Below, piece after piece: positions 74 through 36,537 of a stretch of DNA of 63,020 nt. Each line of letters starts with the position of its first letter. Within the stretch, counting starts at the first letter, position 1. Source of the stretch: Flavobacteriaceae bacterium (GTDB lineage: Bacteria; Bacteroidota; Bacteroidia; Flavobacteriales; Flavobacteriaceae); assembly GCA_002721275.1 (NCBI GenBank), contig PBJZ01000002.1, positions 95,284 to 158,303 on the forward strand. Direction: 5' to 3'. Position numbers and translations under genes: made by a program. Below the pieces are notes generated by a model. It made no database searches, was not told the DNA's origin, and saw only the letters and a program-made list of their open reading frames with translations.

Positions 74-1281
74 ATGCAACCGCTTAAATCAAAAAATATT
101 CTAATCGGTGTAAGCGGTGGAATTGCGGCATACAAGATTCCTATATTCATAAGACAACTTAAAAATGCTGGTGCTAACGTAAAAGTTATTCTTACAGAAT
201 CAGCTAAAGACTTCGTAACACCATTAACTCTTGAAGTTTTATCTCAAAATTCTGTTTTATCATCTTTTGTTTCAGAGGAATTTGATAATCCTAGATGGAA
301 TAATCACATAGATTTATCTAGTTGGGCAGACTTATTTATAATTGCTCCCGCTACCTCTAATATAATAGCGTCAATGGCAAATGCAATATGTAATAATCTC
401 ATTATTGCAGTTTATTTATCCTCTACATGTCCGGTATTTGTTGCCCCATCAATGGATTTGGATATGTTTAAACATCCAGCTAATAAAAAAAATATTTCAA
501 AATTAATAGACCATGGTGATAACGTTCTGCCTGTTGGTGAGGGTTTTTTAGCAAGTGGATTAGAAGGGAAAGGAAGAATGATGGAACCTGAATTTATTTG
601 TGATAATATTATTTCTTTTTTTCAAAAAAAAAAAAACTACTAAATAAAAAAATTCTAATTACTGCTGGCCCTACACATGAGCCTATCGACCCTGTAAGGT
701 TTATTGGTAATAGATCCTCTGGAAAAATGGGTTTTGAACTTGCCAAAGAGGCATTTGAACTTGGTGGTGAAGTAATCTTAATAATTGGTCCCAATAATTT
801 AGATTTGAACTCTTTTAAGGGAAAAATAATAAATGTATCTACAGCTGAGGATATGTTTAAAAAAACAATTGTAAACTTTAAAAATACAGATATTCTAATA
901 TCAGCCGCCGCTGTATCTGATTTTAGACCTAAATCAGTTGATTCAAAAAAAATAAAAAAAATAACAAAAGTTAATGAGATTCCTCTAGAACCTACTATAG
1001 ATATACTTAATGAAATAGCAAAGATCAAAAAAAATCAAATTGTTATTGGTTTTGCACTTGAAACAGATAATGAATTTGAAAATGCCAAAATAAAGCTTGA
1101 GAATAAAAATCTTGATGCAATTGTTTTGAATTCACTAAACGATAAATCAGCAGGTTTTAATTTCAATACCAATAAAATTACCTTCATTAAAAAAAATGGC
1201 AAAGCAATAAAATTCAATTTAAAAACAAAAAAAGAGGTTGCTAAAGATATTTTAAATCAAATATTAGAGATTTATGAATAA
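74..1281 (+). CDS. coaBC: CoaBC: phosphopantothenoylcysteine decarboxylase / phosphopantothenate-cysteine ligase, frame interrupted at a poly-A run
   Basis: This bifunctional enzyme makes 4'-phosphopantetheine for coenzyme A. The CoaC half (residues 1-185) has the flavoprotein start IGVSGGIAAYK, the active-site His in NNHIDLS (His78), PATSNIIASMAN and PSMDLDM. The CoaB half has AGPTHEPIDP, NRSSGKMG and DKSAGFNFNTNKI. The halves lie in different frames: the first reaches TAA at 641-643, the second is open from about 607. The switch coincides with 13 adenines at 624-636. One extra A would give a normal 402-residue protein. No ATG, GTG or TTG precedes the essential CoaB motifs, so separate initiation looks unlikely. 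The usual CoaC motif Asn is Asp128 and the usual Cys is Ser161. The ATG at 74 follows the upstream stop by one base, and the 3' end overlaps the next gene by 8 bases. Confidence 0.88.
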
Positions 1282-19952: not shown

Positions 19953-19976
19953 GCATAATTAAATAACTTGAATGAA

Positions 19977-22078
19977 ATGAAAAACTGTTTTATATTTATT
20001 ATTTTCTTTTTTATCTCTTGCAATGATCAAATTAATTATCCTGGAACCAAAAAAATTGATGTAGTTGATGAGTATTTTGGCACAAAAATTATCGACCCTT
20101 ACAGATGGATGGAAGACGATATGTCCAAAGAAACTGAATCTTGGGTGGAGTCTCAAAATGAGTTGACATTTGAATATTTAGAAAAAATTCCATTTAAAAA
20201 CAAGTTAAAGGTCAGACTTAAACAATTATGGGATTATGAGAAATCCTCTTCTCCTTTTAAAGAAGGAGACTTCACCTATTTTTTTAAAAATGATGGACTT
20301 CAGGATCAATATGTGGTTTATCAAAAAGATAAAAGTGACAATACTAGTATTTTTATAGATCCAAATAATTTCTCAAAGGACAAAACAACCTCATTAGCTG
20401 GTATAAGCTTTTCAGAAACCGGAAAAATATGTGCTTATAGCATATCTGAAGGAGGAAGTGATTGGAGAAAGATAATAATATTGGATGTTTATACTAAAAA
20501 AATATTAGAGGATACTCTTGTAGACATTAAGTTTAGTGGGATTTCATGGAAAAATGATGAAGGCTTTTTCTATTCATCATATGACAAGCCAGAGGGAAGT
20601 GAACTTTCAGCAAAAACTGATCAACATAAATTATATTATCATAAGCTGAATACATCTCAAGAAAATGATATTTTAATCTATGGTGAGAAAAAAGATGAAA
20701 TAAATAGATACGTAAGTAGTACAGTTTCAGATGACGGAAAATATCTGTTTTTGTCAGCAAGTAAATCTACATCTGGAAATAAACTTTTAGTCAAAGATTT
20801 ATCAAATCCAAATTCAAGTTTTAAAGCTATTGTTGATAGTTATGCGTATGACACTTATGTTTTGGATACTGATAAGAACGATTTTTATCTTGTAACCAAT
20901 ATTAATGCCCCACAAAAAAAGATTATTAAAACTAATTTTACTGATTTAAGAATAAGCAAATGGGTTGATATAATTCCAAATTCAAAGCATGTATTATCGC
21001 CAAGTTCAGGTGGTGGATATATTTTTGCAAATTATTTGGTTAATTCTAATTCTGAAGTCTATTAGTATGATTTTAATGGAAAACTAATTAGAGAAATTGA
21101 ACTACCAGGAATTGGAACATCTAATGGCTTTTATGGAAAATCTGAGGATAAAAGTATTTTTTTCACTTTTACAAATTATCATACACCCAATTCTATCTAT
21201 AAACTTGATGTTTCCTCTGGAGAGTATAAATTATTCTGGAGTCCAGATGTAAAATTCAATCCTTCTGATTATGCATCTGAACAACTTTTTTATAAATCTA
21301 AAGACGGAACCCAAATACCTATGATCATTACACATAAAAAAGATATTTTGCTCAAAGAAGGAACTAATCCAACTATTTTGTATGGTTACGGGGGATTTAA
21401 CATTAGTTTAAGGTCATAATTAACATTACAAATATTTTATGGATGGAAAATGGAGGAGTCTATGCTGTTCCAAGTCTAAGAGGAGGTGGTGAATTTGGAA
21501 AGGATTGGCATCTCAATGGAACTAAATTAAATAAACAAAATGTTTTTGATGATTTTATTTCTGCCGCTGAATTTTTAATTTCAAATAAATATACAAGTTC
21601 TGATTACTTGGCTATAAGAGGTGGTTCAAATGGTGGTTTGCTAGTTGGTGCCACAATGACTCAAAGACCGGATCTTGCTGCTGTTGCACTACCTGCTGTT
21701 GGAGTTCTTGATATGTTAAGATATCATAAATTTACTGCAGGAGCTGGTTGGGCCTAAGATTATGGGACCTCAGATGAATAAGAAGAAATGTTTAAATATT
21801 TGTTGAGCTATTCTCCTGTTCATAATGTGAAAAAAGGAGTAAAGTACCCTGCAACTCTTATAACTACTGGAGATCATGATGATAGGGTTGTTCCTGCACA
21901 TTCATTTAAATTTGCAGCTCACCTTCAAGATAAACAATAAGGAAAGCCTCCAACAATTATTAGAATTGAAACAAATGCAGGACATGTGGCAGGTACACCT
22001 ATATCAAAAATAATTAACCAATACGCAGATATTTATGGGTTTACTTTGTTTAACATGGGCTATAAGAATTTACCATAA
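19977..22078 (+). pseudogene. Prolyl oligopeptidase (S9A), decayed
   Basis: An exported serine peptidase that would be about 700 residues after repair. The first 1.1 kb is intact: lipoprotein signal FIIFFFISC, KIIDPYRWMEDD and the beta-propeller. From there it is broken by TAG at 21063-21065 (where relatives usually have Gln), a one-base deletion between 21411 and 21424 just after [10 protein letters not shown], and TAA at 21755-21757, 21779-21781 and 21938-21940. Catalytic motifs are still readable across the breaks: GGSNGG (Ser), GDHDDRVVP (Asp) and NAGHVAG (His). I use ATG at 19977; a TTG lies three codons earlier. The first stop would leave a 359-residue propeller-only lipoprotein. No active peptidase can be made. 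Confidence 0.9.
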
Positions 22079-35050: not shown

Positions 35051-36537
35051 TTATAAAATTTGATTTATTCTTTTTTTCCATAATGATTTTGTCTCAGCTG
35101 CAGATGAATTTATCATTGGCTTAAATATTTTATCTTTTTTCCATATTTTTTTTAAAGAAGAAATATCTTTAAAAAAACCCGTGGATAGTCCAGCTAAGAA
35201 TGCCGCACCCATTGCAGTGGTTTCAGTTATTTTAGGTCTAATTACATTGCATTCTAAGATATTTGATTGAATTTGTAACAATAGGTTATTTTTACTAGCA
35301 CCACCATCGACTTTCAAATCATTAAATTTTGAATTTAAATCTTTTTCCATTTCCACAATAACTTCATAGCACCGCAATGCAATGGCTTCAAGGGCGGCTC
35401 TAGCAATATGACCATTTGTTGTATCTCTCGTTATACCCATCAAATTTCCAGTAGCGCCGGAATTCCAGTATGGAGCTGCAAGTCCTGATAATGAGGGTAT
35501 AAATGTTATTCCGCCGTTATCTTTAACTTTATTAGCTAAAGATTCTATATCAGATGCTGTTTTGATTATTCCAAGATTATCCCTCAACCACTGAACAAGA
35601 GCTCCGGATACAAATACACTTCCTTCAATCGCATAAATCGTTTTATTATTGATACGATATGCAATTGTAGTTAACATATTATTTTTTGAATTTACAGGAT
35701 TTTCTCCAGTATTCATTATGCAAAAACATCCTGTACCATACGTATTTTTTACATCTCCAGGATTTAGGCAAAGTTGTCCAAAAAGTGCTGCCTGTTGATC
35801 CCCTGCAATCCCTGCTATCTTAATTTTATTTCCAAGTATGTCAGCATTCCCTATTATCTCTGATGATTGATAAACATTTGGGAGAATATTCGATGGAATG
35901 TCTAAAATATCCATTAACTCTTCATCCCATTCGAGTTTATGAATATTATAAATTAACGTTCGACTAGCATTTGTTGAATCCGTAGCGTGATATCTTCCAT
36001 TAGTTAGATTCCAAATTAACCATGTATCAACTGTTCCAAACAACAATTCACCTTTAGATGCTAAGATTCTAGCATTTTTTACGTTATCTAAGATCCATTT
36101 GATTTTTGTTCCTGAAAAGTAAGCATCAATTATTAAACCCGTTTTATCTTGAAATAACTTTTTTAATGATACTGATTTATTCTTTCTTTTATTAATTTAT
36201 CACAGATTGAGGATGTTCTTCTGTCTTGCCACACAATCGCATTATATATTGGTTTTCCATTTTTCTTGTTCCAAATAATTGAAGTCTCTCTTTGATTTGC
36301 GATTCCAATTGAATCAATTTCTTGAGGTTTAATTTTAGATTTTTTTATTACCTCATTTATTGACTTGATTTGAGTATTCAATATCTCCATGGGATCATGT
36401 TCAATCCAACCTTTTTTTGGAAATATTTGTTTAAACTCATATTGAGAAATCGCTATTTGATTTCCTTTTTTATCAAAAATAATTGATCTAGAACTCGTAG
36501 TTCCAGCATCAATTGAAAGTATATAGTTTTTTTTCAT
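35051..36537 (-). pseudogene. glpK: Glycerol kinase GlpK, frameshifted
   Basis: GlpK phosphorylates glycerol. The N-terminal part (36163-36537) has the FGGY start YILSIDAGTTSSRSIIFD, the glycerol-specific GWIEHDPMEIL and GIANQRETSIIWNKKNGKP, then stops at TAA after residue 124. The remaining protein continues in the -1 frame from about 36170 with DKTGLIIDAYFSGTKIKWIL and then LFGTVDTWLIWNLT, KIAGIAGDQQAALFGQ and the ATP-binding VDGGASKNNLLLQ. One added base near 36170 would give a 495-residue enzyme of normal size. The rest is well conserved, so this is either a recent mutation or a sequencing error. First gene of glpKDF. Confidence 0.85.

Follow-up and report, generated by a model that had tools for sequence, protein, structure and literature searches.

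CoaBC is a coenzyme A enzyme that is normally essential, and the genome studied here (G000) holds only one DFP gene. How, then, can this gene be broken by a frame offset at a run of adenines, and does the offset belong to the living cell or to the assembled sequence? Within the window, by which we mean the whole analysed stretch of 63,020 bases, the locus consists of the following features.

74 to 643, + strand: CoaC half, phosphopantothenoylcysteine decarboxylase, ATG to TAA, 189 amino acids (Pfam, TIGR00521)
607 to 1281, + strand: CoaB half, phosphopantothenate-cysteine ligase, open frame, motif at 664 to 693, first ATG at 727
616 to 622, + strand: run of 7 T, immediately 5' of the A run
624 to 636, + strand: run of 13 A, where the frames switch, within the Lys-rich interdomain linker
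631 to 637, + strand: A_AAA_AAC, canonical -1 ribosomal slip heptamer, in the CoaC frame, two codons before the UAA
1274 to 2170, + strand: next gene, DUF4835, overlapping the CoaB end (context)

The run is exactly 13 adenines long (A13). The CoaC frame ends 7 bases 3' of it, with the C-terminal residues ...QKKKNY before the stop, while the CoaB frame is open across the run; from stop to stop it extends over 607-1278, and translated from 622 it reads SKKKKLLNKKILITAGPTHEPIDP..., with the stop at 1281. The sequence-only reading had placed the switch between the two frames at A13, had stated that one extra A restores a 402-residue protein, and had found no usable start before the essential CoaB motif. 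All three statements were borne out by the sequence and its open reading frames: the frames are offset by one base, joining them would yield 402 residues, and the CoaB frame contains no ATG, GTG or TTG ahead of AGPTHEPIDP, the nearest weak start being an ATT at 652. Pfam assigned Flavoprotein to the CoaC half (E 4.4e-32) and DFP to the CoaB half (E 3.8e-64). The TIGR00521 coaBC model of 392 positions was matched by the halves at 1-182 and 180-391, in order and complementary, each half alone (189.1 and 202.2 bits) falling under the 219.7-bit cut-off. The break was also recovered when proteins from five congeners served as tblastn queries, and no further lesion was seen in either half, leaving a single indel in an otherwise intact gene. 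In so AT-rich a window A13 is not improbable as such, since dinucleotide shuffles of the window average 1.25 matches, with at least one match in 52 of 100; after A13, the longest run there is a T10. It is the coincidence of A13 with the frame switch, not the run itself, that counts.

To see how coaBC is built in relatives, 60 genomes were searched for DFP, and 56 gave a match, namely our own genome and 55 of the 59 others. In all 55 relatives with a match the gene is one open frame of at least 393 amino acids, as against 224 in our genome. Five of the six other species of the genus have coaBC, all five without the offset, and in the sixth, G003 (68% complete), no coaBC was found. The nearest congener, G006 (77% DNA identity), has an A13 at the same place in the linker, in frame (LKKKKPLENKK). 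The linker of G002 holds one N and an A9, in frame, and those of G001, G004 and G005 are free of long runs. To judge from these sequences, the A run is a variable Lys-coding stretch of the linker, varying in length and content. A conserved switch at A13 was therefore not supported by the siblings, and the comparison with relatives, where the sequence-only reading would have taken an interrupted tract with one intact frame as evidence against slippage, came out close to that case. An order-wide search gave a match in 305 of 395 genomes; only the best-scoring appeared among the matches listed, and split coaBC genes were consequently not counted. No second strain of our species was found, the viral contigs yielding no relative and the genome contigs 10 distant ones. 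Eight of the 10 named matches point to Bacteroidota for this genus, an affinity that otherwise is our reading of its gene content.

The two halves were compared separately by the Nei-Gojobori method with G001, G004 and G005, and only dN was used because dS was high (0.77 to 3.0, with two pairs beyond computing). For CoaC the dN values of our genome were 0.22, 0.23 and 0.21, those of G006 0.23, 0.20 and 0.20, and those of G002 0.23, 0.22 and 0.20. For CoaB the corresponding values were 0.26, 0.31 and 0.33 in our genome, 0.25, 0.27 and 0.29 in G006, and 0.28, 0.30 and 0.29 in G002, so that our CoaB lies slightly above G006 and close to G002. By this measure CoaB is under purifying selection, without clear acceleration.

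Homopolymer runs were then classified throughout our genome, a draft of 1,623,259 bases in 25 contigs that is 83% complete. Pattern searches returned 26 runs of at least 11 and 74 runs of exactly 10, and with one duplicate removed 99 were classified: 46 lay within an open frame of at least 100 amino acids, 44 outside such a frame, and 9 were candidate breaks. Seven breaks were kept, those of coaBC at A13 and, at runs of 10, dnaX and the five genes below.

L108:1766: lipB, break at an A/T run of 10
L111:551: lpxK, break at an A/T run of 10
L162:1202: corC/CNNM-like gene, break at an A/T run of 10, the run in the coding strand being T
L176:1202: ydjC, break at an A/T run of 10
L185:1202: HU/SPOR gene, break at an A/T run of 10

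For lpxK, the corC-like gene and ydjC, a single Pfam domain spans the break, its successive stretches being matched by the two parts. The relatives keep these frames open: lipB in five of six searched congeners (the five with a match), the HU/SPOR gene in 7/7 searched relatives, and lpxK in seven of eight searched genomes (the seven with a match). The candidate at L122 was rejected as two neighbouring genes, judged from the translations; the one at L108:2001, in front of lipB, was judged a gene border, as were L086, L124 and L130 by their layout (not by Pfam). As a separate observation, L191 and L215, at the ends of contigs C11 and C25, are identical in sequence around a T10, which may reflect a repeat or overlapping ends left unmerged.

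With dnaX set aside, 6 of 52 coding runs of at least 10 are broken in our genome, far below the two thirds expected were the frame irrelevant (p 2e-16). At runs of 9 there was one candidate break against 59 runs in frame, and the difference between runs of at least 10 and runs of 9 gave a Fisher p of 0.048. Shorter runs gave 13 candidates at 7 and 6 at 8, with 361 and 192 in frame; the false positives at gene borders among the longer runs suggest that most candidates at 7, 8 and 9 are likewise gene borders. Among the window's candidates at runs of 7 to 9, only the T7 beside coaBC was among the tblastn breaks (48,875 of 63,020 bases covered). The offset runs one way in coaBC, the corC-like gene, ydjC and dnaX, and the opposite way in lipB, lpxK and the HU/SPOR gene, so that without dnaX the six breaks split three and three.

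The congeners did not all behave alike. At coding runs of at least 10, again leaving out dnaX, 0/18 were broken in G001 and 0/21 in G004, and our 6/52 differ from these 0/39 with a Fisher p of 0.035. At runs of at least 11, four of eight in G002 were probable breaks (kdtA-like, DUF3810, wzy-like and DUF7033, only one part of each Pfam-matched), and one of six in G006 was broken, in a gene with response regulator and PglZ domains (porX-like, L128:2001). The names kdtA-like, wzy-like and porX-like are our assumption from one Pfam match each. In addition, pyrD of G002 is broken at a run of 10, as five other genomes support.

G002, L143 at about 4974, L304, L306, L314 and L072: breaks at A/T runs, pyrD and four probable ones

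L249 in G001 proved to be neighbouring thioesterase and UbiA genes rather than a break, and L317 (panC start, G006) was left out of the counts. Four frameshift clusters that lay beyond the window were dropped by judgement: one in G006 that stemmed from the broken G002 pyrD query, one in G002 that reflected a frame extending 5' of the start, and two in G005 with short queries (101 and 105 aa).

Scattered N occurred in 25 of 82 sampled loci of our genome, in 13/15 of G002 and in 16/19 of G006; none was present in the sampled loci of G001 (0/25), G004 (0/23) or G005 (0/7). Loci of our genome with scattered single N include L099, L104, L105, L108 and L110. The N-bearing assemblies are probably merged or population consensus sequences, and the breaks occur in these three (G000, G002 and G006) and not in G001 or G004. 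The contrast hints at a link but does not settle it: effects of clade cannot be told apart from those of assembly style, because the three are mutual nearest relatives in the genus.

On balance we think it probable, if not by much, that the printed A13 is length noise in a consensus, or one strain of a mixed population, and not a fixed allele. The break would then be a one-base length change in a length-variable A run, in the Lys-rich linker of an ordinary coaBC, seen only in our own assembly, and most living cells would have a length other than the printed one. A different number of lysines in this linker should do no harm, since the species differ there. The mixed offset directions, three against three, favour length noise, which predicts such a mixture, slippage insertions being mainly +1 in the account given by PMC5574713. 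With intact relatives and five further breaks at runs of 10, a one-base error, which had been named earlier as the main alternative to slippage, remains the more likely reading. Counting against length noise, the window is free of N, as are five of the six broken loci; the threshold is rather sharp, with at most 1 break in 60 at runs of 9; and the genome holds real lesions elsewhere, such as the prolyl oligopeptidase pseudogene described below. Moreover, runs of 10 are not generally misread, because the A10 of dnaX is exactly 10 in all six species of the genus with the gene, three N-bearing assemblies included.

The dnaX run bears on the strongest alternative, namely that the offset is real and tolerated. 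In all six genus species with the gene, the N-terminal part of dnaX ends right after A10, the tau-specific part lies in another frame, and the direction of the offset is that required by coaBC. The loci are as follows.

L188:617-2334 and L319: dnaX, own genome
L216-L220: dnaX, congeners
L320-L338: dnaX, family

In a search of 60 genomes dnaX was matched in 57, with a short first frame (346-401 aa) in 25 and a long one (570 aa or more) in 32. The run was read by motif search at 22 of 30 loci tried, all of one family, and was A10 in 20, A11 in one and absent in one. Outside the genus, 14 of the 16 loci read combine the run with a long single frame (tau unbroken), where slippage would yield the short product, and G036 has A10 with a short frame. 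In G026 (L221) a short frame was seen without an A run, unlike its neighbours. To judge from the frames, one conserved run appears to serve both known slippage arrangements within one family. Antonov et al. 2013 (PMC3711429) describe dnaX genes of the two-ORF type, including nine that have 10 As, and favour transcriptional realignment; the reversed arrangement is mentioned in the review PMC5009743. From the dnaX arrangement and these precedents we infer, on good grounds, that RNA polymerase slips on A10 in this lineage.

Accordingly worded for coaBC, the alternative states that some transcripts gain one A through slippage of RNA polymerase on A13, that these yield enough CoaBC, and that the run is a nearly neutral length variant in this species. 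We regard this as a serious possibility, though not the outcome we would expect. It gains from dnaX A10, with the same direction in 6/6 species, from a run of 13 that should slip more than one of 10 (PMC5574713 describes, for E. coli and Buchnera, an exponential increase of insertions as A/T runs get longer), from purifying selection on CoaB without clear acceleration, from the lack of a second DFP gene, and from breaks that occur at runs of at least 10 and hardly at 9. It loses from an offset that coaBC shares with no relative, from three of six breaks that need the disfavoured direction, and from the 39 unbroken runs of G001 and G004. As for yield, PMC3017870 cites a share of about 30% full-length transcripts for endosymbiont genes with a frameshift; against this stands PMC5574713, where no case was detected in E. 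coli. Slippage at coaBC as the sequence-only reading proposed it thus stays plausible as an event, and falls as a conserved or programmed device, 55/55 relatives being unbroken.

Should a cell truly carry the offset, slippage of RNA polymerase on the run would probably provide some full-length CoaBC, and a -1 ribosomal shift on A_AAA_AAC might contribute; the fused protein would be identical whether the transcript gains one A or the ribosome shifts by -1 ahead of UAC UAA. The ribosomal shift, which the sequence-only reading had not considered, is very unlikely as the sole explanation in place of RNA polymerase. The heptamer does lie in the right frame, but a stimulating RNA structure 3' of it was rejected, as the stretch 638-730 does not fold better than its shuffled versions (z 0.25; 122 of 200 fold at least as well), and A_AAA_AAC is less shifty than A_AAA_AAG in E. 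coli (PMC5009743).

It is equally improbable that coaBC is decaying, with CoA or its precursors taken up. Congener proteins, covering 48,875 of the 63,020 bases by tblastn, disclosed three breaks, in coaBC, a prolyl oligopeptidase gene and glpK. The prolyl oligopeptidase gene (19968-22075) has four in-frame stops besides a frameshift near 21416, is intact in G005 and G006, and by its look is a real pseudogene. In glpK (35051-36537, - strand) there is one frameshift near 36184, where the sequence is rich in A but has no long run; the gene is intact in G006, the only genome that supports this break. This multi-lesion pseudogene and the single-frameshift glpK in the same window speak for decay; against it, neither half of coaBC has another lesion and its dN is like that of the sisters. 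Both of these breaks lie away from long runs, and they were rejected as proof of sequencing error: the window's other breaks do not decide, because one is a multi-lesion pseudogene and the other is off any long run.

Two separate working polypeptides, with CoaB started at the rare codon ATT 652, are scarcely credible, for although the streptococcal coaC and coaB families match the halves (below their cut-offs), there is no standard start before the motif and 55/55 relatives have one frame. No more credence is due to a programmed, selected switch, for which A13 lies exactly at the frame switch and exceeds the slip-prone homopolymer of at least 8 described in PMC3711429; as a conserved device it is rejected, because all 55 relatives with a match have the gene in one frame, the A13 of the nearest congener included, and position and direction are conserved in none.

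Among known systems, the closest are the poly-A/T frameshifts of Blochmannia and Buchnera (Tamas 2008 and Wernegreen 2010, as cited by PMC3017870 and PMC4389277), where, as these two sources present them, an important and otherwise intact gene of an AT-rich genome carries one indel in a long A run and slippage is proposed as the rescue. The same is seen here, with a single indel in a long A tract and no faster protein evolution (CoaB slightly above G006). Those cases differ in coming from finished genomes, with some offsets common to populations or species and with mixed transcripts reported, whereas coaBC is known from the DNA of one draft assembly and is unshared. The two-ORF dnaX genes with 10 As (PMC3711429) are alike in having a frame offset at an A run in the same direction; dnaX of the genus fits their type, and coaBC differs in not being conserved as a split gene. 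In tssM of Citrobacter rodentium (PMC4256274), an interrupted gene with a likewise premature break, rescue by transcriptional frameshifting is reported from experiment, while for coaBC it is at most inferred. In the literature searched, the one paper that brings together coaBC, frameshifting and slippage mentions coaBC solely in the legend of a figure, as a single gene.

If the offset is a consensus slip only, the finding is a caution: in drafts of this kind a single base would be enough for coaBC, lpxK, lipB and similar genes to be scored as broken or missing. A real offset would show that AT-rich bacteria can keep essential genes out of frame because their transcription is loose on A runs. 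A wider reading, tentative and in our estimate somewhat unlikely, is that across this AT-rich genus RNA polymerase slips so well on A runs of at least 10 that offsets there come close to neutrality, in important genes too (coaBC, lpxK and lipB here, pyrD and the kdtA-like gene in the sister). If true, the phenomenon known from Blochmannia would reach a genome of at least 1.6 Mb, and dnaX would be the sole gene that uses slippage as a programme. The conserved A10 of dnaX makes such loose transcription on A runs plausible and directly testable.
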